Source: Tetrahymena thermophila SB210
Taxonomy: Eukaryota; Ciliophora; Oligohymenophorea; Hymenostomatida; Tetrahymenidae
NCBI RefSeq assembly: GCF_000189635.1
Contig: NW_002475959.1
Span: 303,095 to 367,094 of the forward strand
DNA: 64,000 nucleotides
Reading direction: 5' to 3'
A program made the position numbers and the translations under genes. The notes below the pieces were generated by a model that was not told the origin of the DNA, did no database searches, and saw only the letters and a list, made by a program, of their open reading frames with translations. Shown here in pieces: positions 1-64,000 of this stretch. The stretch's first letter is position 1. Every line of letters starts with the position of its first letter.

Positions 1-3000
1 GTAGGAGTTATAGACAAATAGTATGTGAAATATTTAAAACAAGTATTCCCCGATTGGTATGAAAAGATAATGGGCAAGTAAAAAAAAAACTATTAAAGCT
101 ATCTTCTAGATTTAAGTTATTTCTAGGATTGTTATGTATTTTCCTAACAATAAACCTAAAATAGATATATCATGAACAATAAAAATCATTTAATAGATTA
201 TCACTACAGTGAAAAGCTTTTAGATCACTATAAATAAGTGGCATCTAACTTTTTTGAAGTAGAAGTGGCAAATAATTCACATGATAACAATAATAATTTA
301 CAAAGCATTTAAATTTTAAATTAAATTAATACATCTGATGAAGATGATTTTGAAAACGCAGAATAAATGAAAAACTAAGAGGAATTTGATAGCAACATTA
401 AATATTCTTAGAAAGAAATTGAAGGAATCAAATAATGGAAAAAAAGAATAGCTGAAAGAAACATAAGTATAGCGTGGGATATCTCAAATATTTCTGTTCA
501 TAAAAGCTAAAGCCAAATTGAAGTATGCTAAATATAAATTTATAATTATATAATTTATTAATTGATTTCTTTTACAAATTTAGAATAATGTATTGAAAAA
601 TGGATCTTTTGATAAACCCTATATTATTTGTCTGCCATATTAAAAAAGCTCAGATTAATCTTTTTAAAATAACAAAGACATGATTATTCTCCATTTTAAT
701 TACATATACAAATTAGCCTTCATTAAAGATAATGAGTATAACTACTTCTTACATCCTTACTCTTCAGCTTCTTATTATGTCTAAATTATCAACCTTATTT
801 TCACGATTTATAGTCTTATTTTCACACCTATTTATGTCTTTTTCGGGCTTTAAATTTCTATTTTACCTTTAGTCTTTGAGGTATTTTTATTTACTTTTTT
901 TATCATAATTAAAGTATTAAGCAACATTACCTATTAAATAATATAATAAACTAGCTAAATATCAATTCATACACATAAAAAAAATTAACTTTTATTGGTA
1001 TAACTTAAGAATTAATTCATACATTTTAGGATGAAACTTTAAAAGCTTTTAATTAATTTACAATTAATCATTAGCGTGTTTAGATCCAATATTTTAGCTG
1101 ATTCATAATTAATCGGTTAAACCAGTTATTCAAACAAAATTACATAGCATATTTTAATTATTTTAATGTTATATTTATTTTTAAAATATTTAATTTGATA
1201 TATTTTACTTATTAAAGATTATTCATACTATGTATTTGTTTGTTGAACTCTTTATAGATTTGAGAACGCCATACTTCAAACAAGGATTGTTGGTAGCAAA
1301 TAGTAGAAAAATTTTTACTTATTTATGGGAAAAAAAGAACTTAAAACTAAGACTAACTTGTTTATTTCCTCTTAATATTATTCTTTGGTAAATAAGCTAA
1401 GATTATCAAGAGAGATCTTTTACCTTAAAACTTGTTTTCGTTTTACTCAGAGGCATACGATTATTATAAATATTTAATTTAGATGCTATTCTTGTTAGAA
1501 TTTAAACGCATAATAAATCTAAACAAAAAGCACTAGGCATGCTTGTAGGTTTTTTGCATGTGTTAATTATGTGGCACTATTTTTCTTCACTATGGGTTTG
1601 GTATGCTTACAACATCTCAGTTCCTAATTTTGTAAATATTATCCATATTACACTTTTTTCAAATATTATGTCAAATAAATAAATTTATTAAAATTTTTTC
1701 TATGTGTATATAATTAGCCTGATTTAAATTGGGTCTTGGCAAATAATTTACAAGATGCTGATTTAATTAAAAAAATACTCAATGGGCTTTTTTTTGTTAT
1801 GAGTATTGCCACAACTTGTGGATATCCAACGATGAAATCTAATAATGACATAGAGAAAATATTCTTCATATTTGCTATTTATTTTGGAGATGCAATTATT
1901 GCCTATGATTTTGGTTTGATTGCTACCCAGTCATTACTTTTACCATAGAAATACTAAGAGATAGACAAAAAAATTAAGTAATTTAACATACTGTAGATAC
2001 TTAACAATTAAGGCAGATATTTCATAAAAAACTTTTTTTGTGTTGTCATAATTAAAGTTAAATTTTAAGTTTTTAATTTTAAAATCAATCAACCTTAATT
2101 ATTGAGAAGCTACAATATTTTTACTTTATAGGATAGTATTCAATTTTAATTAATTTAAAATAAATCTTAGGTAATTTAAAATATTGCTAAATATTGGTAT
2201 TGATCACAGTAAAAATAGCAGCATAATAAAACTTAACAAAAAAATTGAACTTTCATATCTATACAAACTATACTCAAATTTATATGTCGAATAATAGCTG
2301 AAATCGATATAGTATTTGATACCTTAAACACTGGTGAATATAATTTAATTCATAATATTTATTTTAAATTGAATCTATTTTTTAATAAATAGTACGACCA
2401 ATTATTTTAAAGTCATTAATCTAATTATCTACAAAAGATACCAATATTACTGGAGCTTTCTAAATCCATTCACTTTAGAAATATTTAAAAGCATATTGAA
2501 CTTAAAGTTTTTTTACCATATGATTTTGTAACTAAGAAGGATTCTTAAAACAGTTATTTGTGTTTTGTAAGCAAAGGTAATGTGAATATTCTTTCTCCCA
2601 AAGAAAATGCAGTTATCTAAGTATTAAATGAAGGTGACTTTTTTAGCTAAGTTACTTTAACTAAATATGGTAAAAGCTCTTCTTGTCCCATTTACACATC
2701 AAACATTGCAGAGATAGTTTAAATTAAGCATAAAAACGTTAGGTTGATGTTTCAAATTTTCCCAGAGTTTAAAAACACAATTTATAAATATGGTAAAAAA
2801 TTTTTTTAATTTAAATATTTTATTTAAATTTATTTCATTAATCAAAAGCAAGGAAATAAATTTGTGTGCCTGTTACATAAAATTAAATAAAGTTGAATCT
2901 GCTTAGTAATTATAAGGAATAAGCTTTATTGTAAGTAAATAAATATTATTCAGGTCATCTGAATAAAGGAAAAAGAGATTTAAATATGAACTCGAATATT

Positions 3001-3039
3001 TTTCTACCCAAGTTTATGACTCAGAGTGATAAATATTGA
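1..3039 (+). CDS. Four-repeat cyclic-nucleotide-binding ion channel, gene A (3' part only)
   Basis: The gene is cut by the left window edge. The visible 761 residues correspond to the end of repeat III's CNBD, the III-IV linker, repeat IV and a short tail. Exons read with TAA/TAG=Gln: 1-522, 584-880, 1218-1631, 1718-1977, 2132-2333, 2393-2792, 2849-3039. All junctions are GT..AG and the phases add up. Repeat IV has hydrophobic segments at about 670-880 and 1500-1631 and a pore helix plus loop containing TTCGYP at 1811-1828, which resembles a CNG-channel pore more than the potassium TVGYGD. A degenerate CNBD follows (2393-2792; FVSKGNVNILSPKE, then EGDFFSQVTL where FGE is expected). The first base matches base 11691 of gene B, and identity is high through exons and introns. 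Relative to B, a one-base shift near the 3' end brings TGA at 3037-3039, and most of B's tail is missing, so A is C-terminally shortened. The channel family is confident; the ligand and ion are unknown. Confidence 0.85.
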
Positions 3040-4246: not shown

Positions 4247-7200
4247 ATGACTGCCAAATAAACAGTTTTATTAAATAGATTTTATGATTTAAAATAAAAA
4301 AATGAGAATCACTCTTATCTGAAATCAACAAACTTTCTATGGAATGTTTCTATATTCATTATTGATTTATATGTTGTTTCTATTTACCAGATATGGCTTG
4401 CTTTAGATTTAAATCCGTGTAACATGTACATAATATTAGGCATATCACTGGAGTTCATTTATTTAGTAAATCTCATTTTAGTTATTGCTATAAAAAATAA
4501 ATAAAGCAATATGCGCTATTACTTCTTTACTCATTTGAAATTCAACAGTATTTATTCAAGTAAAAATAATTTTAAAATTATTATAACATAGAATTTATTT
4601 TTAACTCTTAAACAATTTATAAATTAATCTAATTTCAAAATATTTTAATTTTTTATTGCATTTTAGATTAAAGAAATAACATAGATCCAATATTTTTGTT
4701 AAATAAATAAAAAAGGTACAGTATCATTGATGAATCTTATATCTTTAATTCCTACTCATCTGATAATAGTTGTTTATTTAAAAAAATAAGGAAATACTGA
4801 TATTTATTAGGATGTGAATTTTCCTAAAGCTCTCAACTTAGCTTTATTAACAAAGCTCATAAGGTTTTTAAATATAAAAGAATTCCTCGATAAATTTGAG
4901 CACTTAGTCAAATTTCTAGATTTTAACAAGCTCACTTTTTTTAGAATATTTGTTTCTTTATTTTAGCTTTTATAAATTACTCATTTATTTGCTTGTTGTT
5001 TTGTCTTCTATAACATATACATATAGTCTGGCTACTTTTCTGTGACTCCATATGATATTTCAGGTAATTATATGAAGTATGTAGTGGGATTATAATGGGC
5101 AGTTGAATCTATGATAGGTTCTAGCTTTGGTGATGTTTATCCTCCTACAGATGGTGAAATATTCTTGACATTTATTTCTATGGTTGCTGGAGGTGTATTT
5201 TATTGTAAAATCTTTTCTGATTTTAGTAGTCTTCTTTAAATTAGTGAACAATTTACTCTTGAACTAAGGTAAAATAATTTTTTATACTGTAGATTAACAT
5301 ATTTTGGAGTAGTTTTATTCTGTTTTTAAAGAATTAAATATAAAAAAGTCAAAGTAATTTTAAAATAGTAACATCAAATTCTGATCAAATAAGCTCTAGT
5401 TTTTGAGTAATTGTTAAATGGAAATAAAGATACAATGAATATAATCTAGCATATTATCAAATTTTTTCTATTAAATGCTAAACTTATTTATTTTTATATT
5501 ATCAGGTAGAAATAAAAACAGGCTTACTTGCTCGCAAACAATAAATAAGTCTCTTAAAAAACATTTGACAAAATATAATATTTCTATAACAACTTTGAAG
5601 AAGGATAAAAAATATGTAAACATTCATAAATTAATTAACTGAAAGCTTTAATTTCAAATTAATCTAATTTAAATTATTTAATTTTACAGTAATGTATTAC
5701 AGCATAATATAAGAACTTCCTTCTCAATTAAAGCATGAGGTGGTATTAAAATTCTAATAGAACTTAGTGCAAAATGTGTAAATCTTTAATTTGGGATAAG
5801 CCGAGTTTGTTGCTAAAATGCTCAAAAAAATGTATCCTCAAGTAGCTGTAAAAGATGATTTTGTATTAAAAATGGGAGAATCAGCCTAAGACTTTTACAT
5901 TTTAGCGAAAGGCCGGGTAGAGATAGTGAATTAAGATAAAAAGTAGGTGATTAGAGTTTTAGAGCCAGGAGCTTACTTTGGAGAAGTTGCTATCCTGATA
6001 AATTAATATAGAACATGTTATGTCAAAGCCCAGACTGATTGCATATTTATGTGCATAAAAAAAGATGACTTTTTAAAAATTTTAAATAAATTTCCAGAAA
6101 TAAAGGACTTCCTTCTAAGAGTTGGTTAACAAAGAATGGGTGGAACTAAAAATAATGAAGACATTTTCCATAATATTGATAAATGCTAAATAAATAAATT
6201 ATCTCTATAACCATTAGAAATTAAAAGTAAAATCTTTTTGGCTTTTAATATACTGAATATATTCTCTTATATTGTTACTATAAAACTATAAATCTTATTT
6301 AAATTTTCTTAAAATTTTAAAATAAAAATAATATGAGTTTCTAATTTTTTAAATTAAATTAAAATATGTTAATATTATTTATAATATCTATAAGATACAT
6401 AAAATTCGAACCATTCACTTATAAAAAGAGGACACATATAGGATACCATATAAAATAATTATTTTGCTAAAGTAGATTAATTGAACTCAAAAAGTCCTTA
6501 AAATGACACACAAAAGTGTTAATCACAATTTCTCAGCAATGAAGAAGCTAATTTTATAGGAGAAAGTATAAATATCTCTTTCGAAAATGAAAATTTAAAG
6601 AGAAAAATACAAAGAGTTCGAGAATAAAAAGACTTAAAAGTCTTAGTCCTGAACTAGAAGGTAATATAAATTTGTACATTTAATCAAAATATTATTTTTA
6701 TTATTTTATTTAAGGTGATGATTTACTGGGCTATGATTTTGCTTATAGTTTTAACTTACAATCTTTTTTACTCTCTTTACAGTATTTTATTTAGTGAAGA
6801 CTTCGCTGGTGATGTTTCTATAGTTCTAGAAGCACTAAGTTTTTTAATTAATTTTATTGACTCTCTCATATTTTCAAGACTCTCAACTTTTTCAAGAAAA
6901 GATAATGAATTTATTTTGAGCAGTAATAAAATATTATTCAATTACTTAAATAAGGAGTTTTTCTTTGACATGTTAGCTACTGTACCTTTCTCTAACATTT
7001 ATCAATTAGTTTGCAGTGAGCAAGAGTTTTAAAATAGCTTAATTTTTATCAGACTGTTTAGGCTATTAAGATTAATCAAATTTAGGAGATTTTAGTAATA
7101 TATTTATATATTGCAAGATCAGTACAAAATTAATTTTAAGTATGCAGCTTTAATTAAACTTGCATATGTATACTTTTTCCTCAATCACCTAAATGCTGGT

Positions 7201-10200
7201 ATCATGTACATACTTTGTAAATATGAATATGATAATAATTTAAGCTACTCTTTAGGAGTTTAAATGGATGGTTAATCAATTGAATAAGAAAGGCCCTTTA
7301 TGATTAAAAACTTTTATGTAAATTTTCTGTATTGGTCTTTCTGCGTTAGCACTCAAGGTATAATTTATAATTTAACAGTTTAAATTAATTTAAAAATTCA
7401 TATTTATATTTAGAGTAAAAAAATAATTTCGAAGCTAGTTATTAAAAATATTGATTTATTTTATTATTTTCATAGTTATTCATATTAAAATCTTTTTTAT
7501 TGTCTTAAAATAAAAATCCATATTATTGCATTAATATTTGATATAATTTTAGGAGCATATGGAGATATATGGGCTATGAGTTCATTAGAAAAGACATACT
7601 AAAATGTGACAAACATATTTTTTAAGATATTTTTCTGTTTCTTGTTTGCAAATTTAGCTTCAGTTACAACTGTATCAAAAAATAAGCTTGAACAATACTT
7701 GGAGGAGGTAGACTCTTTTAAATATTGGTCTAAGTTGATAGGGCTTTCTTCTGAAATTCAAAATAGAATTATAAAAGTTTACAATTATAGGTGGTATCAT
7801 CAAAAAGGTATCGAAGATAAAGAATTAGAAGAAACCTTGCTACCAGATAACATTAAAGATAAAATTTTACACCAGAGAATGAAATTGTAATTTAAAATAA
7901 AATGCTTCTTCTATATTTTTAATATTATTTATTTTAATAAAGCATCGTTAAATTAATAAATCCGCTTCAAAATTCATAATTAGATAGTATTTTAATGCTT
8001 TTTCTTAAAAGATTTGAGAAAATTATCATCACGTAAGGAGAATTTGTTTTCTAAAAAGGAGATTTGGCTCAAGAAATTTACTTTATCGAAGAAGGAGTAG
8101 TGTAAATAGTTAATAATAACAATAATAATGAAGAAGTCTTAGCTGAAATAAGCTAATATGGTTATTTTGGTGGATTAGAATTCATAAATATAGTTCCTTC
8201 TCTCAGAAAAATTTCTATAAAGGCTAAAACTAATACATCACTTTTTATGCTTGAACTAGATTAGTATTATCAATTACTTGAAGAATATCCATTTGCTAAG
8301 ATGTTTATACAAAACATCTATCCACAAGAACAGTCAGAAGTATTTATTTCTCTTATCTTTCTAAGCTTTAAATATAAAATTTAATTTTTATTTAATTAAA
8401 ATAATTAATAGAACAACAAATAAAAGATTTTTGAAGATAGAATCTAACATATTAAATAAAATAAAAATAAAAATTTAATAGATTTAGTTGATTTTGAAAA
8501 TTACTAGGTAGATAATGAAGCTAATTTAAATAATTAAGAGTTTTAGTAGATTCATTAAAAACTGAATATTGATGAGAATTACAAAATGAGAATATAATTA
8601 ATTAACCAAGAAAAATAAATCACATTTAACCAATAAATTCTATACAATAATAATAATCATAGTAACTAAATTTTGTTATACAATGATCTGATTGGCTCTG
8701 TTTGTTAAACTAAGGTGTGCTCAGAGTAAAACTATTTTTATAATTAACCAAATACTCATAATCTTTAAGATTTATAAATTACACATAAATTGTAACAACA
8801 TCCTTAATAAATTGAGTTGATGCGGTTTGATAAATAAGAACCAAACTAAATAAAAGAAGCGATATTTAGCATTTAATAAGATTAATAAATAAATTTAAAT
8901 GCTCAATTGAATTAGAAACAAGATAGTAAAGTAACTCTTTAATAAAAAGATGAAGTTTTAAACAATATCAATAAAAATTTATTAAAGTAATAAGAACCAA
9001 AGTAAATAGCAATTAAAAATTTTTAAAAACCAGAATAAATTGATGTTTAGTAGCTTAATTAATCACAAAGGAGATTAAGTTTAATTTATTTTGATGATAG
9101 TAGTGATTTTTCAAATTATCAAAAACTAGAAAACGTAAAAAATAATCAATTAAAGTTGAACACTCATAGTAATCTTAGCTAAGCTTAAATTAGAACAGAA
9201 AGTAATAGCAGTCTTAGTCAAGATAGTTAGAAGAACTTTCCAAAAAATTATAGACAAAAAGAATAGAAAAAGCGCTTAAGCTAACTCAAACAGCATAAAA
9301 ATAATTATTTAAAGAAGAAGAAATAAACTTTTTCATTAGAAGACTTACAACAAATTCATTCAAAAGAAAATAATCTTGGCTTATATAATTCTTCTTTTGG
9401 AGATTATTCATAGAATTTAAGCTTACTAATTTCTAAAAATAGTCTAACAAATTTGAATTTAGATTAATTCGGAATAATTCATAACATTAAGAAATTTGAC
9501 TCTGACGAGTTTAATTAAAATTAAAATGATCATTCATTTTTAGACTTAGAGATGGAATATAACTAAGAATTTGAGAAAATACAAAGCTATTTTGATAAAA
9601 ATTTAGAATTTTAGGTTCTCGTCAATCAAATTTGTGACTAAACTAAATAATATAATAATTAGTTAACTGATCAGGAATTCAACGAATTTGAAGAAATTAT
9701 AGAAATAATTGGTATAACTTAAAATGAAATTTAAGAAGAGAGTTAACTAAATAATAAAATTAACTTGAGTGGAATGTATGAATAAGATATTCGTAATTTA
9801 CAGTAGAATCAAGATCAATCATAAATAATTTCTAATATAAATTCAAACTACTTAGATTACAGTACATTTAATGATAGCTATTACTAAATTAATGAACTTG
9901 ATAAAAGCATATCTTATTCTTAATTGAGTTTTGATCTAGAAGAACCTATTAAGGATGATGACTGTAAAGAAGAATTGTCAAAGCAAATAAAATAAAGCTA
10001 ACTTTTAAATTAAAAAAATTAAAAAATCAGTAAATTAAGAGAAAGATTTATACAATTTTTACTAAATGTATACATCACTTTTTCAAAAACAGAAAGTTTG
10101 ATATCTTTAACTCAGCTTTATTTTACAATAATAATTCCTCTTTATCTTGCATTTAAAGAAATATCTTTCTAAAATTCAATTCTTATTACAGTTGAAATTC

Positions 10201-13200
10201 TGATTATAGTTAATGAATTTAGGTATCTTATAAAGCTTATTAAGTTATATAAAGAAATAATAGCTAACATCTCTGAAATTAAATATGGCAGCTGTAAGAA
10301 ATTTAATTTATTAGCTTTATTTTTTTTTTTTAAATTTTGAAATTTATTTTGAAATTAATTTTAGAATTTTGATAATATTAAAAAAATTATTTAACTCAAT
10401 GTTTTTAAATAAAAAGCTTAACTTTAACTAGTTGCTGCTAATAGCTTCTCATAAAAAATATACTCTTTGAAAATTTTCTAAAAAAGAAAAGAGAAAGTTT
10501 TTATAATGATGCTCTTAGAAATATTGATGATTATTCCTTTTTGTCTGATCTTCGATTTGCTTTAAATAGAAGGAATAAGAACGAGATTTGAGCTCATATT
10601 TCTTTAGTTAATTAGAGTTATTCCATTTTGCAGAATATTCAATGTTCTTTCAACATTAAAAAAAAAAAATATTTATTTGTGTAGAGTTATTGAAACTCTT
10701 TTAGTATATGTTCTATTCTGTCATTTACTTGGATGTCTATTTATAGTTTTAGGAAAAATAGAATAAGATTTTAATGCTTCATGGCTGATAAAAGTTCCTG
10801 CTCCATAAGCTTAATTTCCAAATAATATAGTAATAATTTTCATTCATAAAAAATATAAATAAATAATTTCATTTTAATTATAAAAGAGAATTCAATTATC
10901 AATAAGCAATAGAAGTTTATACTTGCATGCTATATATTGGGCATATGTAACTACATCCCATGTGGGGGTTGGAGATGTAACTGGAGTTAATTTAAGAGAA
11001 AAGATTTTTAGTATTTTTGTTATGTACATATCAACCTTCACACATATCATAATATTTGGAAATCTGGCCTCTATGGCAAAAGAAGCTGCTTTCATGCTAA
11101 AGATTAAACTTGATTAAAAATATGAAAAAATATTTTAAACTGTTAGTCTTTTGAATGTTACTTCTTTTAAAATATAAGTTGAAGTAATTTTCATAAATAT
11201 TTGACAAAATTTATTTTATTTCTTATAAATATTTAAAATATTTAGAGTTATATAAATTTTATTTGGAATGACTCGTATGGCTTAGATGAAAACCAAATTT
11301 TGGAGAAGTTGCCTTTTTATTTGAAAGTTGAAATCCTCAAAAAACGATATAAAAAATGTATTAATGAAACATTTGTTTTCAAATCTAACTCTTGGTAAGT
11401 AGATATGAACATTGTTCACTCAATTCTGAGATTTATGAAAGTCAAAATTTTCTTAACAAATGACGTAATAGCAGAAGCAGGCAAGTCTTACCAAGATTTG
11501 TACATCTTTTTACAAGGAAAATATGTTACCTTTCAATTAAATGGCAAAAAAGCGTATGAGGCATAAGTAGGAGGTTTTTTCGGAGGATCTTAAACTGATT
11601 TACCTCTGACATTATATTATCAAGCCAAGTAAATAACTAAATCTAAACATTCTCATAACGAAATTTTATTTAAATAGAAATATCTGCAAGGTAGGAGTTA
11701 TAGACAAATAGTATGTGAAATATTTAAAGTAAGTATTCCCCGATTGGTATGAAAAGATAATCGGCAAGTAAAAAAAAATGTATCAAAGCTATCTTCTAGA
11801 TTTAAGTTATTTCTAGGATGACTTTGTATTTTCCTAACAATAAACCTAATATAGATTTATTGTAAACAAGAATAATCATTTAATAGATTATCACTACAGT
11901 GAAAAGCTTTTAGATCACTATAAATAAGTGGCATCTAACTTTTTTGAAGTAGAAGTGGCAAATAATTCACAAGATAACAACAATAATTTAAAAAGCATTT
12001 AAATTTTAAATTAAATTAATACAACTGATGAAGATGATTTTGAAAACGAAAACACAGAATAAATGAAAAACTAAGAGGAATTTGCTAGCAACATTAAATA
12101 TTCTTAGAAAGAAATTGAAGGAATCAAATAATGGAAAAAAAGAATAGCTGAAAGAAACAAAAGTATGGTCTGGGATTTCTAAAATGTTTCTGTTCATAAA
12201 AACTAAAGCTAAATTGAGGTATGTCAAAATATATTTATAAACTTATAATTAAAAGCAATATTTATTCATTTTTTACAAATATAGAATAATATATTGAAAA
12301 GTGAATATTTTCATAAGCCATTTGCTATTTGCCTACCATATTAAACAATTGCAGATTAATCTTTATAAAACAATAAAGATATGATTATTCTCCACTTTAA
12401 TTACATATACAAATTAGCCTTCATTAAAGATAATTAGTATAATTATTTCTTACATCCTTACTCTTCAGCTTCTTATTATGTCTAACTTATCAACCTAATC
12501 TTTACCATTTATAGTCTTATTTTCACACCTATTTATGTCTTTTTCGGGCTTTAAATTTCGATTCTACCTTTAGTCTTTGAGGTATTTATTATTATTTTTA
12601 TCATAAATAAAGTATTAAGCAACATTACCAAATAAATTTTATAAATATTCAAATCAATAAATATTATTATAATCATTCATATAAAAAGAACTAATAAACT
12701 TTTACTGGTATAATTTATGAATTAATTCATTAATATTAAAAATGAAATAATAAAAGCTTTTAATTAATTTGCAATTAGCCATTAGTGTGTTTTAATTAAA
12801 TATTTATTTTGGCTGATAGATACTTAATCAATTTTCAAACAAAGTTATATAATATATTTTAATGTTATATTTAAAAATAAATATTTAATTTGAAATAATT
12901 TACTAATTAAAAAGATTATTCATACTATGTATTTGTTTGTTGAACTCTTTATAGATTTGAGAACACCATATTTTAAACAAGGATTGCTTGTAACAAATAG
13001 TAGAAAAATATTTGCTTATTTATGGGAAAAAAAGAACTTAAAACTAAGACTAATTTGTTTATTACCTCTTAATATTATCCTTTGGTAAATAAGCTAAGAT
13101 TATCAAGAGAGATCTTTTACCTTAAAACTTGTTTTCGTTTTACTCAGAGGCATACGATTATTACAAATATTTAATTTAGATGCTATCCTTGTTAGAATTT

Positions 13201-15664
13201 AAACACATAATAAATCTAAATAAAAAGCTATAGGTATGCTTGTAGGTTTTTTACATGTGTTAACTATGTGGCACTATTTTTCTTCACTATGGATTTGGTA
13301 TGTTTACAACATCTCAGTTCCTAATTTTGTAAATATTACCAACATTACACTTTTTCAAATATTGTTTTAACTAAATAAATTAATATTTATTTCTATGTAA
13401 ATATAATTAGCCTGAATCAAATTGGGTCGTAGTAAATAATTTACAAGATGCTGATTTAATAAAAAAAATACTCAATGGGCTTTTTTTTGTAATGAGCATT
13501 GCCACAACTTGTGGATATCCAACAATGAAATCTAATAATGACATAGAAAAAATATTCTTCATATTTGCTATTTATTTTGGAGATGCAATTATTGCCTATG
13601 ATTTTGGTTTGATTGCTGCTTAGTCATTACTTTTACCATAGAAATACTAAGAGATAGACAAAAAAGTCAAGTAATTTAATATAAAATAGGTACTTAACAA
13701 TTAAGGCAGATTTTTGAGAAAAAAAAATTTTTTTATGTGGCCTTAATTATATAACTAAGAATAATGATCATAAACGATTTAATATACAGTAAAACCTAAT
13801 TAATTTTCACTATTTTCATGGAATTTTTGAAAAAAATTTGAAATTTAATGCCAAATATTAAGTTTTTAAAATTAAAATTAATCAGCCTTAATTAATGAGT
13901 AGCTACATTATTTGTTTTATTTACTTTATGAGAATTTATTGAACTTTAATTAATTGAATAAATATATCTTAGGTAATTTAAAATATTGCTTAATATTGGT
14001 AAAGATCACAGCAAAAATAGCAGTATAATAAAGCTTCACAAAAAAATTGAACTCTCATATCTATACAAACTATACTCAAATTTATATGTAGAATAGCAGC
14101 TGAAATAGATATAGAATTTGATTCCTGAAACACTGGTAAATATAATTTATTCATAATATTTATTTCAATTAAATTATAATTTACTCTTTGTTAAAATATA
14201 TTTTAAAATTGCTTGTATTTTTTAATAAATAGTATGACTAATTATTTTAAAGTCATTAAGCTAATTACCTATAAAAAATACCAATATTACTGGAGCTTTC
14301 TAAATTCATTCACTTTAGAAATATTTAAAAGCATATTGAACTTAAAGTTTTCTTGCCATATGACTTTATAACAAAGAAGGATTCTTAAAATGGTTATTTA
14401 TGTTTTGTAAGCAAAGGAAATGTGAATATTCTTTCTCCCAAAGAAGATGCAGTTATCTAAGTATTAAAGGAAGGTGATTTTTTTAGCTAAGTTACTTTAA
14501 CTAAATATGGTAAAAGCTCTTCTTGTCATATTATCACGTCAAACATTGCAGAGATAGTTTAAATTAAACATAAAAACGTCAGATTGATGTTTAAAATTTT
14601 CCCAGAGTTTTAAAACGCTATTTATAAATATGGTAATATATAAAAAAATTTAAATATTTTATTAAAATTTATTTAATTAATCAAAAGCAAGGAAATAAAT
14701 TTGTGTGCCTGTTACATAAAATGAAATAAAGTTGAATCTCCTTAGTGATTATTAGGAAGAAGCTTTCTCGCAAGTAAATTAATATTTTTCAGGTAATCTG
14801 CATACTGGAAAAAGATATTTAAATATGAACTCGAATATTTTTTTTACATAAGAAAATGACTTAGATGAGTAATAAATGTTGAAAAATTGTATGAGTAGTT
14901 AAAATAATTAAAAATAATAACTTTAATCTGATTTTCAAATTAAAAGTAAAAATGAATACTTGAATAACATTCCATCATAAATTCATTTAAAATAACTTTA
15001 AGAAAGAAATTAAGTACAGATTTCTCAGTGTAATTTTTCGTAATAGAGCTATAGTAGTGAAGCCTCAGGAGGTCATACAAAAAAAATAGGGAATATCAGA
15101 AGAAATTTCCTTCTTGAAGATGATGAAGGTTTTTTGGCAAATAATCTTAATCATTCTAAAGACCAAATAATTTTAAATAAACATACGCATCATTTAAATT
15201 TAGATGTATTTTAAAATAATTAACAATAAAATCCAAAAATTTAGCATAAAAAACTACCTAAAAAATATAGTCATAGTAATTTTAATCATAATAGCTTTCA
15301 TTTAAATTTGCTTAAAGAATGCAATCTAAATGATGAGCAATAGTAATAAATAGGTATACAATCTCAAGGATAAAAAATCATAGAAGCTTAAAAAAACTAA
15401 AATCCACAAAAAGCATTATTTTAAGCTGAAGAAAATACTCAAAAACGCCAAAGTAGTTTAATATTCTTTTAATATTTATATTCAATTAAAACTAAATAAT
15501 ACATCATTTAATTTAAACTTAGTCATTCATTTTTAAATAACTAATAAATTTTTAATATTTATTTAGATGTAATCGAACTCATTTAGTTTAATGATCTATC
15601 CTTAAAAGAAAATACAATTGAAGCTTAAGACTAAAATATATCAATCAAAAATTTAGGAATATGA
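4247..15664 (+). CDS. Four-repeat (pseudotetrameric) cyclic-nucleotide-binding ion channel, gene B, complete
   Basis: Predicted plasma- or ciliary-membrane channel of about 3,000 residues with four repeats, each of membrane segments, pore, C-linker and CNBD. Start: ATG 4247, with an in-frame TGA upstream and a matching ATG in gene C. Repeat I: S1 from about 4325, filter GSSFGD at 5117-5134, CNBD about 5690-6125 with the signature YFGEVAILINQYRT. Repeat II: S4-like RLFRLLRLIKFRRF near 7060-7100, filter TQGAYGD split by the intron 7358-7552, CNBD about 7980-8340 with FGG in place of FGE. Repeat III: S1 about 10090, filter HVGVGD at 10959-10976, degenerate CNBD to about 11770. Repeat IV: pore TTCGYP at 13504-13521, degenerate CNBD about 14235-14632. 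A single frame with no TGA runs from repeat II's CNBD through a Gln/Asn-rich linker of roughly 550-650 residues into repeat III (8340-10290), so this is one gene. Stop TGA 15662-15664. The architecture resembles CNGK (tetraKCNG) channels. Some exon borders are approximate. Confidence 0.88.
11691..14860 (+). repeat. Segment duplicated between gene B and gene A (matches 1-3039)
   Basis: From 11691 the sequence repeats the left edge of the window almost base for base, including introns at the same places, with scattered substitutions and small indels. One intron-borne difference: the intron before 13950 in B has extra sequence absent from A. This is direct evidence of a recent tandem gene duplication. 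The equivalent segment of gene C (about 24060-26800) matches only at protein level. Confidence 0.88.
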
Positions 15665-16595: not shown

Positions 16596-19500
16596 ATGAT
16601 CGAAAATAAATAAGTATTGCAAGATAAACTTAGAAAACTTAAGCAAAAGAACGCAGATCATTCTTATATTAAGTCAACAAGTTTTATATGGAATCTTTTT
16701 ATTTTTTTTTTGGATTTATACGTGATTGCAATGTACTGCTTCTGGATTTCAGTCTAATTAAACCCTTTACATATGTAAATGGTATTAGGAGTATCTATTG
16801 AGATTTTATAATTAATAAATATGATTCTAGTTATTGCTTTGAGAAACAAATAAAATAACAAGCACTACTATTTTTTTACCTCTTTAAAATTTGATAATCT
16901 TTAGTAAGGTAATTAGTAAAAATGAATAATAATTTATCATTATTATTATTCAATTTAATTACAAATAAAAATTTTTAGATTAGATTTTAATGAAACTTAA
17001 TTGATGTTTTATAAAAAAAATAATTTCCTTTTTAAAAGACTGTTACTTATTTCAGTGCTTTCATTTAAAGTAAAAAACAATTTATCCTCATTTTTAATTA
17101 ATATTGTAAAATATAGGATTTTAATCTTTTATCAATCTGATTTCTTTGGTACCAAGTCACTTAATTATAATATTTTACGTTTAATCAAAACAAGTTTCAG
17201 AATAAGATGAAAATATTTCTAAAACAATTATTTTAATATTACTAACGAAACTCTTAAGACTAGAGAATGTAAAGGCATTCTTGAATAAAATTGAAAATTT
17301 AATCAAATTTCTTGATTTTAATAAATTAACTTTTTTCAGAATCTTTCTTACATTATTCTGGCTCTTGCTTGTAACTCATTTATTTGCTTGCTGCTTTATT
17401 TTCTATAATACTTATATACAATCTGGATACTTTTCTGTAACCTAATATGATCTCTCTTGCAATTACATGAAGTACGTAATTGGTCTTGAATGGACAGTCG
17501 AAGCTATGGTAGGCTCCAGCTTCGGAGATGTTTATCCTTCGACAGAAGGTGAGATCTTTTTAACAATAGTTTCTATGGTTACTGGTGGTATATTTTATTG
17601 TAAAATATTTTCAGATTTCAGCAGTCTCTTAAAAATCAGCCAACAAACCAAGATGGAAATATGGTATAAATAATTATATAAAGATTCTTTTTACAGACAT
17701 TCTGATTTAAGTATAATTTAACTCTTTATAACAATTGAAATTTCAAATGAGGCTTTTATTGAAGCCTCAATGTACTAATCTTTATGGAATATAAATAATT
17801 GAACTTACTCACAAGCTATTTTATTATATCGAATGATTATTATGAAAAATTAAATAGAATAATTGAAAATATTTTAATAATTATTTATTTTAATTTAAGG
17901 GAAAAACAAGAATAGGTATATCTGTTTGCAAATAAGAAATAGGTATCCTAAAAGATTTATGATAAAATACAGCATTTTTACAATAATTTTGAAGATGGAT
18001 AGAAAATAAGTAATATTTTTTATTTAATAATAATAGAAATATTAAACAATTTTTTAGTTAATTACTATAGTATTATTAAGGAATTACCGACTTAGTTATA
18101 ACAAGAAGTAGCTCTGGATATTAATGGTGAACTCATTTCTAATGTTTAAATTTTTAATTTAGGCTCGCCTTAGTTTGTTTTAAAAATGATTAAAAAGCTA
18201 CATCCTAAAGTAGCTGTTAAAGATGATTATATCATTAAAATTGGAGAGATTGCAGAAGAATTTTATATAATTAGCAAAGGGAAAGTAGAAATGCTTGGCG
18301 GTGATAAAAAGACTGTAAATAGAATTTTAGAAAGTGGTTCTTATTTTGGGGAAGTAGGTATCTTACTCAATCAATATAGAACCTGTTATGTCAGAGCTTA
18401 AACAGATTGTATTTTGATGTGCATAAAAAAAGAAGATTTCCTTTAGCTTTTAAATTAGTTTCCATAAGTTAAAGACTTTCTCAAAAAAGTCAGTTAATAA
18501 AGGTTTGCCACAACTAATTATGAGAATTTTAGTGCTTAATATTTACCTTAAAGTAGTTTTAAATAAGAAAATATAAGCTAGCAACATGTGCAATTGAAAT
18601 AAAATTTTTGTAATTTATTATTGGTTTAATATTTAATACAATAAAAAATGATACTTGATAAAAGAAAGAAATTTCTTCTTATTTTAAGTAAAAATAAACT
18701 TATGTTAAAAATTGTAATTTAAAATTTAATTAAAATTTGTTATCTAAAATAATTCTTCGTTTTCATTAAATTAAAAAAAAGGATTTAAATTTTTTAAACT
18801 TATATTTTCTTTAAAAATAGTTAATTCTAATCAGAATAATTTACTGCTTTAAAGACGAAAGAAATTACCATTTATTGGTTTACGCTAGTGTGATGATTCA
18901 TAGTCTCATATTTAAAATGAGTAAACTGAAGAGATATAAAATCAATAGCAGTAGATTCAAAGTAGTGCAGAAATAATTTTTACTGAAGAAAGTATTCATT
19001 AATCTTTTGACAATTAAAACCTAAAAAGAAAAATATAGAAAATATAATAAAGAAGTGACTTAAAGGTTTTAATCTTAAATGAAAATGTAAAAATTTAACT
19101 TATTTTAACAAAAATAATTTTAATAATTTATTTATAATAATAAGATTTTAATTTTCTGGGTGTTGATACTATTAACGGTTTTAACTTATAACCTCTTTTA
19201 CTCCATTTATAGTATTTGTTTTAATGATGATTTTGATTCTGATTTAGCTATTGTTTTTGAGGTTATTAGCTTTGTAACAAATCTTTTTGATTCTATATTG
19301 TTCTCTAAGCTATCAACATTTTCCAAAAAAGACAATGATTTCATTTTAAATAATAAAAAAATATTTTTTTAGTATCTAAATCAGGAGTTATTTTTTGATG
19401 TATTGTCTACAGTTCCTTTTAGCAATATTTATTAATTAATATGTGGTAGTTTGAATGTAAAAAATGACACTTCTTTAGTTAGATTGTTAAGATTTTTAAG

Positions 19501-22500
19501 ATTAATTAAATTTAGAAGATATTGTTAATATCTCATTATTTTGCAAGACCAATACAAAATCTAATTCAAATATAATTCCTTCTTGACCTTAGCTTATTTG
19601 TACTTTTTTATGAATCATCTTAATGCAGGGATCATGTATAGAATTTGCAAGTTTGAATATGATAATGCTGATACTTCATCCCTTGGTTTTTAAATGAACA
19701 ATTACTCAATTCAGTAGGAAATACCTTTTATGGTGAAAAATGTTTATGTTAACTTTTTATATTGGTCTTTCTGTGTAAGCACTCAAGGTAAAATTTTATC
19801 AAAAAAAAGCAAATATTTTTAGGTTTAAATTAATAAAATTATATTCATGAGAATATTTTATTCTATTTGTTTTTAAATTATAATTTTATATTGGTTATTG
19901 AAGTTTTTAAGTAAATTATTTAATTAAAAAATAGGTGCTTATGGAGATATTTGGGCTATGACTTCAATAGAAAAAACTTATTAGGATATTGCAAATATTA
20001 TATTTAAAATATACTTTTGTTACTTATTTGCTCATGTTTCCTTGATTACTGAAGTAAAAAAAAGTATGCTTGCACTGCATCTTGAAGAGCTGGACTCTCT
20101 TAAACAATGGTCAAAACTAATAGGGTTGTATTCAAATATAAAAGGTAGGATTAGGAAATTTTACAATTACAAATGGATGAAGTAGAAAGGGATAGAGGAT
20201 AACCAAATATAAGATAGCTTGCTACCAGAAAATATCAAAGAATAAATAATAAAAAAAGGAATGAGATTGTAAGATTTTTTAAGTTAAGAAATTAAAAAAA
20301 TTTTTTTATTTTAATAAAGCATAGTAGAATTAATTAATCCTTAAGATAATCCATTTTAAGGAGGAGCTATTACCTAATTTTTAAAATAATTTGAAAAAAT
20401 TTTGGTTCCTAGAGGTGAATTTGTATTTTAAAAAGGAGATTTGGCTTAAGAGATGTATTTCATAGAGGAAGGAATAATCTAAATTGTAAAGTTTAATGAT
20501 GACTTAAAAGAGGAAATTTTAGGAGAGATATACAAAAACAGCTATTTTGGAGGTCTAGAATTTATTAATAAAGTTCCTACTCTTAGAAAGGTCTCAGTTA
20601 GAGCCAAAACAAATGCTTGTCTTTATATGCTTAAAATGTAGTCATACATAGATATTGTGTAGGAATATCCTTTTTGCAAGCTGTTTATTGAAAATCTTTT
20701 TCCTTTTATGAATGTAAGAAATTTTTTTAATATTAATGTATGAAATGTTAAATTTAACTAAAAAAAAGAAAAAAGAGAAAAAAATTTTGTAAGACTCATT
20801 AACTTAAATTAATGTTGAAGAAAGTAGTTAGTAGAATTTAAGTAGTTATAATAAGAGAAAAAAATCATTACAAAGCTAAAATATCTTCTTACACAATAGC
20901 TCTAATGTAGTTGATTAAAGTAATGACCAATAAAATATTCTGAAAAGATTAAACGAAAGCTAAAAGAGACTTAAAATAAAAGTTATAAAGTAAGAAAATT
21001 TGGTTGTACTTAATCAACATATTATTTATAAAAATAATGAGAATAGCAACCAAGAAATTCTAATTTATAATGAAATGATTGGGTCTATTATTTAAACAAA
21101 ACTCTTATATGAGAAGATGTATCCTCTTGCAACATAAGATCAGATCAAACAGTAAAACAATAATTAAATTTAAGTTGTTGATGGTAGGAATGATTGTGGT
21201 GGAAATAATGATGAAAATAACAATAATAATCATTAAATTGAAAGTTTAACACATTTGTAGTCACCACAAGGAAACATTTTTAGTAGAATATCAACTAAAT
21301 CAAAGATATTTTAAAGCACAATTGCTTAACTTGAAAATTAAATTGAAGATTTAGTATAAAAAAATTAACTGCTGCAGCAATAACAAAATAAAAAAAGAGT
21401 AAGTTTGTTTCAGTTTGATGAAAGCAATAATAATTTGTAAAATCATTAAAAGCTCCCTTAAATATAAAAATAATAGAATGTAGAATTGTGTTGTTTTAGC
21501 AATATTAATTCAGATGTAAATTTAATGGATGATAGTCCACAAAAATAAGAATACAATTAAAATACAGAAAGAAGATAATCATCAAATTAGTAATATCTCA
21601 AAAGTATTTCTAGTTAATACTAGTAAGCTTTACATTAACAAAATAATAACTAAGTTAACAAATAAATTGCTCATTTTAGAAGATAATCACAAGATAACTC
21701 ATTTCTACAAAGCTTTAGTGAAAGGTATTCAAATAATTTATTGAAACCCATTCTCGCAGGAACTGCTGACAGTTTGTCACAAAAAGTTAATTTAAACGAT
21801 ATTAGAAAGAAATCCTCAATTCTATTAAATTTGCAAGATTAATTTTTTTTTGATTACCTCTCAAGTCAAAATATTTTGAAAACTAAGCAACCATTTAGCA
21901 GTGTGCCACCTTCGATAGATGAATTTTTGTTAGAGTTAGACAGCTAAGAATCTAATGATTCAGAGGAAGAGAGGATTCAAAGTTATTTTGAAAATAATTT
22001 GGAAATAAAAGATGATATTATTGATATAATTTAAAAAGATTTTAAAAATGTTTTATTTATTACAGAAGAAGATTAAGATGAAATTCTATAAATGCTGAAT
22101 GAATTAACAGACAATGAATATAACTCATGTCATCAAAACAGTGATGAAAAAAAATAATGTATGTTTTATGATAATTCAGAGTAAGAAGCTAAGCAATATA
22201 ATTGCATAAATACAAATAAAGCTAATTAAGAATTTGTTTAAAATATTTAAGAAGATATTTTATGTAACGATAATCTAGAGGATATTTAAATATCAGTATT
22301 AAATTAAAATATCTCATTTTCTTAACTTAGTTTTGATTTGGAAGAAAAAATTGAATAAAATAAAAATAAAACATATTTAAAGAATGCATTAAATATATTA
22401 AAGTAGAAAGATATTTATTCTTTATAGAATTTTGGCATACTTGCCTATTTCAAATAAAGATTTAATTCTTTAATAAATACTCTGTATAGGATTTTGTCTC

Positions 22501-25500
22501 AAGTAGAGTATCAAGTATCTTTAGATTAGTATTATTTTACATTGATAATTCCTCTGCACATAGCTTTCACAACTATCTCATTTTACAACCCCATTCTCAT
22601 TATAATTGAAATTTTAGTTATGCTAAATGAAGTAAGATATTTGGTAAAATTAATTTAATCTTATAAAAATACCAATCAAGAAATATCTCAGTTAAAAGTT
22701 ATTCAAAGTAAATTTTTTTATTTTATTTATTCTCATTTAAGGCTAAAAACAAGGATTTATTTTATTTAAAAATATTCAAAAAGACTTTGTTTAAAACTAA
22801 GGAGTGAAGGAAATGAATAAACTGCAAGAAAAAATATACTTACAAAAGAATTTAAAAAGAAGAAAGATAAAGCTTGCTTATATAATTTTTACTCAAGTTC
22901 TTTTGTTGATTCCTTTTTCAATGATTTTTGATTTAATTGAACTAGAACATAGAAGAGACAAATATATTTTAATATACCTTTAATTGATAAGAATACTTCC
23001 TTTCTAAAGATTATTCAATATTTTATCCAAACTGAGAAAAAGGAATATTTATTTATGCAAAGTAATTGAAACATTGATTATGTATTTGTTAATGTGCCAC
23101 GTTATAGGTTGTATACTCATAGTATTAGGAAATATCGAACCTGATTTTAATGGATCTTGGAAAATTAAAGTACCTGCTCCACAAAACAATTTTCCTAATA
23201 ATTATGTAATTTTTAATTTTTAAAAATAAACTAATAATTCTCTTTTTAATTGCAGAGAGATAAACTAGAAATAAGCAATTAAAGCTTATACTTATAAGCA
23301 GTTTATTGGGCTTATGTTACTACTTCTCATGTAGGTGTTGGTGATGTAACAGGAGTTAATCTAAGAGAAAAATTATATAGTATATTAATTATGTTCCTGT
23401 CTACATTCACCCATATTATATTCTTTGGAAACTTCGCTTCAATGGCTAAAGATGCCGGTTTTATTCTTAAAATAAAGCTTGATTAAAAGTATGAAAGAGT
23501 AATTAAAGCTGTCAGAAATATCAATCTCACTTCTTTCTAGATTCAAGTCGAAGTAATATTTAGAAATTTTATGATTTTAATGAGTTATTTTATAAACAAA
23601 ATTTTAAGTCTTACTTCAACTTTATATGGAATGATTGTCTGGGAGTAGACGAGAATTAGATCGTTGAGAAATTACCTTTTTCATTGAAAGTAGACATTCT
23701 AAAGAAGAGATATAAAAATTGTATTAATAAGAGTAGTCTGTTCAAACTAAACTCTTGGTAGATAGATATGAATGTAGTTAATTCAATCTTGAGATTCATG
23801 AAAGTTAAAATATATTTGCCAAATGACATAATCGCAGAGGCTGGTAGATCATATGAAGATTTATATATTTTCTTACAAGGAAAAGTAGAAGCCTTTTAAT
23901 TTAATGGAAAAAAAGCTTATGAAGGTGAAATAGGCTACTATTTTGGGGGATCGCTAGAAAAATTGCCTTTGACTGTTTACTATCAAGCAAAGTAAATTAA
24001 TTTAAAAGAAAAATCGTAATTATTTGTATTTTTATTTTTATTTAAAAGAAATATTTGCAAAGTTGGTGTTATTGAAAAGCAATAAATGTAATATCTTTAG
24101 ATAGTATTTCCAGATTGGTATCAAAAACTAATTAGCAGATAAAAAAGAAATTATTCGTCTTAACTCTTAAATTTAAGTTTCTTCTAAGAAAATATCCGCA
24201 ACACCAAAATAATAATTAACAGCAAAAATAGAATGATAAATTATGAAATCAGCGATAAGTTAAAAGAACACTATGAGCAAATAGCAGCTAATTTTTTTGA
24301 AATAGAAATAAGTAAAGATAAGTAGCATGATAAGCTAGAAGATATACAAGTATTTGATCAATTTAACATGACTGAAGAAGATTTATCAGAAAGTTAGCAA
24401 TGTAACGCGAATGGATTCAATCGCTAAGTTACAATTAATGAACCCCAATCCCCAAAAGAGAATGATGTGGAGAGATTTAGAAGAAGTAGAGATATAAATA
24501 AAACAATGATTTGGAACTTTTAAAATGTTTCCGTTTAAAAAAGCTAAGTGACTATGTCAGATGTAAATTAATTTTATTATCCGAACTTAAAATCTAAAAA
24601 ATAATAAAAAATAGTATAAAATTCAGAAAAACTAAACTTATAACTAGCCATTTATTATTTGTCTGCCTTAAAAGAGTAAGAATCAATAGTCTTAAGGAAA
24701 ATCTAGAGTTAAAGACATGATAATTCTTCATTTTAGTTACATATATAAGCTAGTTTAAATTAAAGATGCAAGATATAAATACTTTTTACATCCTCATTCT
24801 TCTGCTTCCTTCATACTATAAATCATCAATCTTGTATTTACCTTATACAGTTTGATTTTCACTCCTATATATGCTTGTTTTGGCCTTCAAATATCCACTC
24901 TCCCTATATTCTTTGAAGTATAATGTTTATTTTAAAGCAAACTACTAATTAATTTTCAAGAAAAATAATAATTTTTATTTGAAATATTTAAAAATATATT
25001 TAGCTTTTATTTAATTAAAACTGTAAATTAAATAATTCAAAATATAAAAAAAAATAAATCTAGAATAAAACTATTAAGAAAATTAATATTTATTTTATAA
25101 ATTAGGTACTTCACACAGTCTATTTATGCTTGCAGTTATTTATAGATTTAAGAACTCCATATTTTAAACAAGGAGTGCTTGTTACAAACAGTAAGAAGAT
25201 ATTTGTAGATTAATGGAAGTATAAAAGTCTAAAGTTAAGAATGATTTGTATACTTCCATTTAACATAATTCTTTGGAAAATTAACTAAAATTATTAGGAT
25301 ATATCATTTATATTAAAATTATTTTTGCTTTTACTGAGAGGAATAAGGACTCTGTAGCTCTTTGTTCTAGATGAAATTCTCTTAAAAATTTCAATATAAA
25401 ACAAATCTAAACAAAAATTCTTAGAAATTCTAACAAGTTGTATAAAATTCTTACTCTGGTGGCATTAATTTTCTTCTATTTGGATATGGTATGCATATAA

Positions 25501-27891
25501 TGTTTCTCTCCCGAATTTTGTAAGATTTAAATTTTCAGTTTTAAGGAATATTAAATAAATATATTTAATTTTTGTTTGATTTTTAATCATTATTTTCTTT
25601 TTAATTAAAATTGTTAGCCAGAATATAATTGGGTATAAACAAATAATTTATAGGAAGCTTCTTTACTTGAGAAAATATTAAATTGTCTATTCTTCGTAAT
25701 GAGTACAGCTACTACTTGTGGCTATCCAAGCATGAAATCCAATAATGATATGGAAAGAATATTTTTTATTTTAACTATATATTTTGGAAATGCTATTATA
25801 GCTTATGGGTTTGGACTTATTGCTGAGTAATCACTTTTATTGCCTGAAAAATATCAAGAAATCAATAATAAAATTAAGTAAATTAAGAATTTTAATTATA
25901 ATTTATTGGAAATATTTGTTGAAGTTGGTTTATTTAAATAATTTCAACTTATTAATCAAAGGCCTTCATCACAAAATAGATTTATTTTTTTTTAATAAGA
26001 ATGAAAATCAATATTTAAAATTTTTATATGATAAAGCCTATTTTATTAAAAAAATAATAAAGTTTGATTATTTGTTTCTTTACTTTTTTTGATAAATATT
26101 TTATTAAATAGACAGTTTAGACTTTTATTAAACGATGGTTAAGTTGAATAAGTTAATAAATAAATTCATAAAAAGATAGAACATTGCTATTTGTACAAAT
26201 TACATTCAAACTTATCAGTTGACTAGGATCTGAAACAAATTCAGTCTCTTATTCCTTAGACATTAGTAAAAAATTTATTACCATTTCTTAAATAATTATT
26301 AATAATTAAAATAGTATGATTAGCTTTATCTTAGCCATTAAACAAAATACTTACAGAAAATACCAATTTTACTAGAGTTAACTAAGTCTATTAGATTCAG
26401 AGATATATAAAAGTACATAGAACTTAAGATTTTCTTGCCTTATGATTTCATCAATACAAAAAATTCCCATAATTAAAATTTATATTTTGTGAGCAAGGGT
26501 AGTGTGAATATTCTTTCACCAAAAGAGGATACTGTACTTAAAACTCTAAATGAAGGAGAGTATTTCAGCTCAGTAACTTTAAATAGATATGGAAAAGTTT
26601 ATTTATGCAATACCTTTACCCCTAATTTTGCAGAAGTAGTTTAAATTAGATTAAAAAATATCAAATAAGTTTTCAATACTTTTCCTGAACTCAAAAAAAC
26701 AATATAAAAAAAAGGTAAAATTCAGATAAAAAAATTCTTTTTTATTTTATTTAAAAAAAAAATTATTTATTTATTTTTGATTAAATTAGCAAGGAAATAA
26801 ACACATATTATTTTATCAGAAAATGAATTTTAAATGAATATTCTTACTAATTTTTTAGAAGATGAAGAAGAATAAATAAATAATTATTCAAAGTTCAGAA
26901 AAATAAGTAATAAAGATAATGATTTAAGTTAATCCAGAATTTAGAACGAATAAAATCAAAATATTTCAGAGGAATAAAATTCATCAAGCTATGAAAATTT
27001 AAAGATGAAAAATTTCATTAAAAACATTCAAAGCAAAAGTTAGAAATAAAGGTTTAACATTTCATTACCTAATTTGTGTTAAGTTAACCATAATTAAGAA
27101 AAATAATTTAACAATTCATAGTAGAATTTATAAAAAGAAAATATCAGCACAAAAATTCCTTCAATGAGTAAGAAAAGTTTTAATGATATTAAAAGGGATT
27201 TTCTACTTGAAGACGAAGATGGGTATATAGTAACTGAATATATTTGCACTGATGAAAGATATTCTTCAAGCGACTGTTCCTCAAGTTCAAGCAATCAAAG
27301 CTCTATAGATAGTGAGGATTAAAGTGATTTTAATTAAAATCTAGCAATTTATAAAAGAAAATCCTATCCTACTTCAAAACCCATGCAATATTTCAAAAGT
27401 AAAGAAGCTACTAAAGACAAATAAATTAGTAGCTTTAAAAAATATTAAATATAAAAGGAGCTAAAAAAAGAGTTTAAATAAGTTACTTAGAATTAAAATG
27501 ATAGCTTATATTAAAATAAAGAATAATGGTAGACAAGCAGTTATCCTAAAAACATAGCTCTGTTTGAACAAAGTATTATTAAATATTATTTACTATAAGT
27601 AAATTTATTCATTTTTTTTAAATTAAAGTACGAAAAATTTCTAGCTCTAAAATTAAAAAGTAATATACTTAGACCTTGAATAATTTTTCTAATTAAGAAG
27701 ATATTAATTAAGACTAAATTAACTTTAATGTTGACACTGCAGATAAATCAATTAAAATAATTCAAAATAAGAGAACAAGTATTAAGAGATACTCCAAAAT
27801 GGGTTTGAGTCAAAATAACTAACTTTCTTTCATTGAAAATTCTAAATAAAAATGGAAGAAAAATTTTGTTAATTAATAAAATAAAAAATGA
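16596..27891 (+). CDS. Four-repeat cyclic-nucleotide-binding ion channel, gene C, complete
   Basis: Paralogue of gene B with the same four-repeat plan and intron positions but clearly diverged at DNA level. The ATG at 16596 aligns with B's start (both are followed by Lys/Gln-rich sequence, then HSYIKST or HSYLKST before S1). Repeat I filter GSSFGD lies near 17512-17529 and its CNBD at about 18060-18490 keeps YFGEVGILLNQYRT. Repeat II S4-like RLLRFLRLIKFRR lies at about 19480-19525; the filter TQGAYGD is split by the intron 19798-19934; the CNBD has SYFGGLEF. Repeat III filter HVGVGD is at 23338-23355 and its CNBD has YYFGGS. Repeat IV pore TTCGYP is near 25711-25728. The C-terminal tail (about 26800-27891) is Ser/Asn/Gln/acid-rich and longer than in A, with one intron near 27570-27626 and stop TGA 27889-27891. 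It encodes about 3,000 residues. Ion selectivity and ligand are inferred only at family level. Confidence 0.87.
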
Positions 27892-63975: not shown

Positions 63976-64000
63976 GGGGTTGGGGTTGGGGGTTGGGGTT
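63976..64000 (+). repeat. Macronuclear telomere, (GGGGTT)n, right chromosome end
   Basis: Four units read GGGGTT, GGGGTT, GGGGGTT, GGGGTT, with the G-rich strand running 5'->3' to the end as required for a right-hand telomere. GGGGTT is the Tetrahymena-type repeat. The third unit has five Gs, which could be a telomerase slip or a sequencing error. The window therefore contains a true chromosome terminus. Confidence 0.95.

Follow-up and report, generated by a model that had tools for sequence, protein, structure and literature searches.

The question raised by this locus of Tetrahymena thermophila SB210 is whether one gene can hold four ion-channel repeats, each with its own cyclic-nucleotide-binding domain (CNBD), and whether those repeats still do the same work. 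The window, by which we mean the whole 64,000-nucleotide stretch of DNA that was analysed, covers positions 303095-367094 of contig NW_002475959.1 (C428 below), and the gene in question, G4, lies within it at 4247-15664 on the forward strand. Sequence comparison supports reading this interval as one gene with four collinear repeats (I-IV), each composed of membrane segments S1-S6 with a pore, a C-linker and a CNBD. G4 belongs to a tandem array of five paralogs on C428 (G1-G5); contig C50 carries a sixth and old one, T50. We consider it probable, at roughly 0.6, that G4 encodes a ciliate single-chain, pseudo-tetrameric channel of the CNBD class in which labour is divided among the repeats. The first-pass annotation of this DNA had proposed a single gene with four channel-plus-CNBD repeats and altered pores in every one; the tandem paralogs, T50 and the unequal distribution of sensor parts among the repeats are observations beyond it.

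The reading frame through the four repeats

Under genetic code table 6, TGA is the sole stop; several frames in the window stay open over 600-1086 codons, and one stop-to-stop open reading frame (7755-10340) spans 861 residues with 85 in-frame TAA or TAG codons. The best model of G4, with splice sites drawn from the model itself and from comparison with paralogs, has 19 exons and encodes 3040 residues. All 18 of its introns run GT..AG and contain 5-18% G+C, against 25% in the coding part; some of the short introns keep the frame and contain no TGA, which leaves an uncertainty of tens of residues in the exact length. Exons were set by hand for G3 and G4, since these two are so nearly identical that homology-guided models read their introns as coding. 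The remaining four genes have homology-guided models, which may retain some intron sequence (inserts are visible in G2, G5 and G1).

The junction between repeats II and III had been described as one long frame without TGA, and this is what the stretch at 8340-10290 contains: one frame is free of TGA, and the others have 11 and 33. None of 2000 order-1 simulations of that stretch gave any TGA-free frame, the longest run having a median of 200 and a maximum of 590 codons. The other two junctions likewise join in phase, as had been claimed, III-IV within a single uninterrupted frame (C428:314704-315987, window 11610-12893) and I-II across a predicted 168-base GT..AG intron rather than in one uninterrupted frame. 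A 66-base intron is also predicted at III-IV, but as it is in frame and TGA-free, the junction is open whether spliced or unspliced. Compared with the approximately 1.2 kb that separates the G3 and G4 models, these junction introns leave little space for a gene boundary. The proposed outer limits, an ATG at 4247 and a TGA at 15664, both agree with the best model. Across the six genes, a single uninterrupted raw frame leads from CNBD II to S1 of repeat III in four (G2, G3, G4 and T50), from CNBD III to S1 of repeat IV in three (G1, G2 and G4) and from CNBD I to S1 of repeat II in one (T50).

Selection points the same way for the linkers and for the repeats that they join. Between G4 and G3, the ratio of nonsynonymous to synonymous substitution rates (dN/dS) is 0.20, 0.27, 0.35 and 0.13 for the membrane parts of repeats I-IV, 0.18, 0.26, 0.19 and 0.13 for their C-linkers plus CNBDs, and 0.23, 0.43 and 0.39 for the three linkers; these are point estimates, spanning 0.13-0.43 across all 11 segments and giving 0.27 for the whole over 2740 codons, with the C-terminal tail outside the comparison. 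For G4 against G2, a pair whose synonymous sites approach saturation, 11 of 12 segments give 0.06-0.56, with the I-II linker already saturated. Within the II-III exon, 5/5 insertions and deletions against G3 and 19/24 against G2 have lengths divisible by three, versus 9/23 in six G3/G4 introns. With dN/dS below 1 in every G4-G3 segment compared, even the degenerate CNBDs of repeats III and IV look kept.

It is also worth considering how a gene finder behaves on these loci. Ours used splice patterns set by hand and codon usage trained on long open frames in the window and the 30 kb upstream. Given no coordinates, it returned a single 16-exon gene running from an internal ATG at 4730 to 15664, and comparison with paralogs supplied the probable start at ATG 4247 along with several exon edges. 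With relaxed splice settings and no forcing, it predicted one gene for each of the five array members (2675-3185 residues; G3 and G4 minus their first exon). The same settings split two control arrays of single-repeat channels, on contigs C391 and C112, into five and three models, respectively, of 522-1354 residues, and because two of the C391 models (522 and 559 residues) look like halves of one gene, the finder evidently over-cuts too.

These results bear directly on the idea that two to four adjacent ordinary channel genes have been misread as one. The genome does contain tandem runs of CNBD matches, both of the runs that were checked looking single-repeat, and one finder setting cuts some of the four-repeat copies. 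Set against this are the raw frames that cross the junctions, the small junction introns, the linker dN/dS of 0.23-0.43, indels that mostly preserve the frame, control arrays that do get cut into single genes, and a paralog with the same repeat order at 22-33% identity. On balance we regard separate genes as highly improbable, and the proposal of a single gene with four channel-plus-CNBD repeats is supported.

Homology, age and order of the repeats

Searched against the sequences in the PDB, G4 repeat I matched SthK (E=3e-28) and HCN1 (E=1e-25), repeat III matched SthK (E=5e-16) and KCNH2 (E=2e-13), and repeat IV matched 6wel, a cyclic nucleotide-gated channel that we take to be TAX-4 (E=5e-14). 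T50 repeat II, searched in place of its G4 counterpart, matched CNGA3 (E=4e-24). In these four queries homology extends over the six membrane segments, the pore, the C-linker and the CNBD, as expected of CNBD-class channels. The best-matching families differ (SthK-type for I and III, CNGA3 for T50 II, a CNG channel for IV), so that no single family is singled out. Pfam alone misses part of the four-repeat build. Ion_trans is found in repeat III only; Ion_trans_2 exceeds its cut-off in repeat III and in the pore exon of repeat IV and falls below it in repeat IV as a whole; cNMP_binding exceeds its cut-off in repeats I and II and in one exon of repeat IV (28.9 bits), whereas repeat IV as a whole scores 25.6 bits, under the cut-off of 27.5, and repeat III gives no match. 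Among themselves the four repeats are 16-21% identical in hhalign profile alignments.

In searches of the species' own genome (101 Mb, 445 contigs) with the membrane parts of G4 repeats III and I and of T50 repeats IV and I, C428 and C50 gave the strongest matches, and the remaining loci reached E 5e-6 or weaker, the level of ordinary channels; the paralog counts are lower bounds. A linker match on C129 is putatively low-complexity coding sequence. Per repeat, identity to G4 is 91-93% in G3, 69-82% in G2, 60-65% in G5, 45-49% in G1 and 22-30% in T50. G3 apparently lacks most of the C-terminal tail of the G4 type (window 2893-3120), similarity ending, by eye, near 3120.

The relationship between the two loci is informative about the age of the arrangement. 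Each T50 repeat matches the corresponding array repeat with 89-216 bits in 20/20 comparisons, at 22-33% identity, whereas 49 of 60 comparisons with non-corresponding array repeats give no match and the best of them reaches 50 bits. A tree of the 24 repeats and 13 of 16 single-repeat proteins from the same genome (two were excluded because their matched spans were short, and L030 was left out by choice) recovers each repeat class as one clade, with support of 100/100, 100/99, 100/99 and 99/97 for I-IV; repeat II retains 96/97 when the single-repeat rows are omitted. The single-repeat channels all fall on one side of a branch supported at 100/99. By these sequence comparisons the order of the four repeats is old and fixed across both loci. 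Branching among the classes is weak, II+III having support of 58/21 with the single-repeat rows and I+IV 77/80.9 in a second tree, with long branches present; against I+IV, neither I+III nor I+II is rejected by the approximately unbiased test (p-AU 0.171 and 0.216).

Filters, S4 segments and binding cassettes

The altered pores proposed for every repeat are borne out more widely than in G4, since all 24 filters of the six genes differ from TVGYGD. In repeats I to IV, the filters read GSSFGD, QGAYGD, HVGVGD and TCGYPT in G4, and GNSTND, QGCFGT, HTTTGD and STGYPQ in T50. The codons of the repeat II filter in G4 (window 7354-7566) are interrupted by a predicted intron at 7358-7552. Single-repeat channels of the same genome have T[VL]GYGD in all 15 readable cases, the sixteenth model being a fragment that starts in the CNBD.

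One might propose from these filters that G4 is a non-conducting or purely regulatory pseudo-channel, a sensor or scaffold whose pore passes no ions; every repeat is altered, T50 more so, and the II-III linker is very long and hydrophilic. Yet the filter strands are constant or differ in one place across the five array genes, the first filter position is common to T50 and the array (G, Q, H, and T or S), and the membrane parts have dN/dS of 0.13-0.35. We therefore consider a pseudo-channel unlikely, while granting it some weight.

The sensor parts are shared out unevenly. A full S4, with five lysines or arginines at every third place, is found in repeat II of all six genes, and each of the other 18 repeats has at most two. 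The exact phosphate-binding cassette FGE..R[TS]C is present in repeat I of all six and in none of the other 18; in the array, repeat II reads FGG..R, repeat III FGGS with no arginine, and repeat IV lacks FGE. Notably, a single full S4 and a single exact cassette are retained in all six genes, and the repeats that carry them do not vary. A loose cassette pattern occurs in just 7 of the 16 single-repeat channel models sampled, and 150 CNBD places were scored among 540 candidates.

Several observations weigh against a divided, single-chain channel. When the acceptor was made stricter and the gene-start penalty low, the finder, again unforced, cut three of the five array genes, inside repeat IV for G3 and G4 and at the I-II junction for G1. 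It cut T50 under both settings; under the relaxed ones the cuts separate S6 from the CNBD in repeats I and III and spare the junctions between repeats. CNBDs II (FGE..RGA) and IV (FGE..RIA) of T50 are less plainly dead than those of the array. A crude scan counted three or fewer lysines or arginines in register in the S4 of 10 of 15 single-repeat channels, and with weak S4s so common in this genome, S4 loss by itself is not special. T50 repeat IV is so divergent that its match to an ordinary CNBD-channel locus on C97 (5e-6, adjoining a CNBD match) comes close to its top match in the array (6e-7); structure prediction of the membrane part of this repeat without an alignment gave a mean predicted local distance difference test score of 41 and was useless. 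Finally, an altered filter is no proof of an altered ion.

The coordinates are collected in Table 1. Elsewhere in the window, on the reverse strand, are a single-exon gene of 1007 residues with hydantoinase/oxoprolinase domains and an S-Me-THD-like part (41175-44195), three adjacent open frames of 627-692 residues with weak, below-cut-off ERGIC_N matches (32567-40164) and an open frame of 815 residues with an acyltransferase_3 domain (59096-61540). An open frame of 949 residues on the forward strand (48854-51700) has no Pfam match at E up to 0.01. Outside it, runs of CNBD matches at approximately 5 kb spacing on C22, C33, C112, C145, C174 and C391 are apparent tandem arrays of single-repeat channels (parts of C112 and C391 were checked).

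Table 1. Parts of G4 (window positions) and locations of the six four-repeat genes
Feature	Position	Strand	Remark
Repeat I membrane part S1-S6	4337..5224	+	intron 4560-4715; PDB match of repeat I
Repeat I weak S4	4832-4885	+	
Repeat I filter GSSFGD	5117-5134	+	
CNBD I	5806..6138	+	PF00027 6.9e-21
CNBD I exact cassette YFGEVAILINQYRTC	5974-6018	+	
I-II junction predicted intron, 168 bases, GT..AG	6227..6394	+	uninterrupted frame at this junction in T50
Repeat II membrane part	6724..7665	+	T50 counterpart searched in PDB
Repeat II full S4	7042-7095	+	
Single exon: CNBD II, whole II-III linker, S1 of repeat III	7943..10293	+	
CNBD II	7989-8327	+	PF00027 1.6e-12
Repeat III S1	10113-10160	+	
Repeat III membrane part	10113..11060	+	Ion_trans 2.4e-12
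Repeat III filter HVGVGD	10959-10976	+	
CNBD III, degenerate	11423..11771	+	cassette shortened, FFGGSQT, no arginine; no Pfam match
III-IV junction predicted intron, 66 bases	12219..12284	+	in frame, TGA-free
Repeat IV membrane part	12486..13608	+	Ion_trans_2 2.3e-5 in pore exon
Repeat IV filter TCGYPT	13507-13524	+	
CNBD IV, degenerate cassette FFSQVTLTKYGKSSSC	14314..14631	+	PF00027 1.1e-6 in exon
C-terminal tail	14688..15664	+	exons 14688-15452 and 15567-15664
G1	C428:268756-282038		
G2	C428:283014-294575		
G3	C428:295692-306123	+	3' part is window 1..3029; 91-93% identity to G4 per repeat
G4	C428:307341-318758	+	
G5	C428:319690-330985	+	window 16596..27891; one gene, four repeats, about 3050-3120 residues
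T50	C50:192446-205964		3370 residues (forced model; start is the best-scoring of the ATGs tried)

Known channels and a possible division of labour

The window and its contig end in GGGGTT repeats (63976-64000), an apparent telomere that we take to be of the Tetrahymena type, which places the end of the array about 36 kb from the tip of a macronuclear chromosome. A telomerase frame of this genome shows no visible difference from PDB 6d6v chain A, the T. thermophila enzyme, over two long stretches with an apparent intron between them. Tandem duplicates in Tetrahymena are described as commoner in pericentromeric and subtelomeric regions, which we take to be those of germline chromosomes, and the CNBD is listed among seven main domains of species-specific genes (PMC6564038). 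T. thermophila has 396 predicted genes of the voltage-gated ion channel superfamily (PMC3341644). Databases may well include predictions of this family's genes under some unspecific name. In the matches listed by our literature search, neither a title nor the opening of an abstract mentioned a four-repeat CNBD channel from a ciliate; most subscription journals and the Tetrahymena gene database lay outside that search.

Comparison with known systems is instructive. CNG, HCN, KCNH and SthK channels share homology with G4 from the membrane part through the CNBD and are tetramers of separate subunits. The single-repeat channels of the same genome (C391, C112 and others) have the same domain order within a repeat but differ in having one repeat per gene, the T[VL]GYGD filter and a separate clade (13 in the tree). 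Fused CNBD-channel repeats of the SAR supergroup (stramenopiles, alveolates and Rhizaria) share with G4 both the fusion and CNBD decay in some repeats, with two repeats there and four here. Nav, Cav and NALCN channels, which have four six-segment domains without CNBDs and EEEE/DEKA-type filters, are likewise single-chain pseudo-tetramers with unequal domains, whereas G4 contains CNBDs, matches CNBD channels and has filters that align to the TVGYGD position.

The closest analogy of build is CNGK, known from sea urchin and zebrafish sperm and from a choanoflagellate, to which G4 had been likened; it too has four six-segment, CNBD-bearing repeats in one chain. CNGK channels open when one cGMP binds at a single CNBD or, in zebrafish, in response to pH, and the sequence of G4 suggests one exact cassette. 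CNGK has a GYG/GFG filter (PMC4749565), found in none of the 24 repeats of the six genes. A review describes its domains as nearly identical, its linkers as equally short and any specialisation as not obvious (PMC6259924), in contrast with repeats of 16-21% identity here and, in G4, very unequal linkers of about 92, 559 and 166 residues (I-II, II-III and III-IV; bounds set by hand). The kinship of CNGK repeats 1 with 3 and 2 with 4 (PMC7576140) is not recovered in the ciliate tree, though the I+III pairing is not rejected either. The same 2020 survey, with 262 homologues in its trees, reports that it identified no tandem CNBD channels in ciliates (PMC7576140). Sea urchin ApCNGK is gated through one CNBD only, the third, whereas G4 has its exact cassette in the first; this precedent for one binding site gating a four-repeat channel (PMC4749565) is, with the shared build, what speaks for a true CNGK, that is, an ortholog of the sperm tetraKCNG that keeps K+ selectivity despite altered filters. 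On the sequence evidence membership in CNGK is not supported, and we regard such an ortholog as improbable.

In a divided, single-chain channel, the four repeats of the approximately 3040-residue chain would close round one pore, as do the four repeats of CNGK or the four subunits of CNG and HCN channels; since each repeat is by homology a quarter of a CNBD channel, one chain could suffice. Repeat II, with the sole full S4, would be the voltage sensor, and repeat I, with the sole exact phosphate-binding cassette, the cyclic-nucleotide sensor. In this family a threonine or serine after the cassette arginine permits binding of cyclic GMP, as the residue in repeat I would. CNBDs II-IV may act chiefly as gating-ring components, relaying the response of repeat I. 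Four different filter strands make a classical K+-selective pore unlikely, and a mixed cation pore is the likelier outcome. We give a little less than an even chance to the further proposal that ciliates built a four-repeat CNBD channel independently of animal CNGK and that its repeats then specialised in the manner of Nav and Cav domains (I for ligand, II for voltage, and a pore not selective for K+). If true, and given that CNGK shows no obvious specialisation in the review's account (PMC6259924), ciliates would have reached an asymmetric four-domain channel by a second route, independent of the first and taken from the K+/CNBD side.

A four-domain build lets each quarter of a channel evolve separately, the textbook example being the channels for sodium and calcium. 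CNGK has been described as near-symmetric, whereas in the ciliate family ligand sensing, voltage sensing and filter chemistry appear to be divided among the repeats, a split kept between two loci whose repeats share only 22-33% identity. As T. thermophila is a genetic model organism, what each repeat does can be tested in vivo, and it is this divided labour among the repeats that seems most worth attention.

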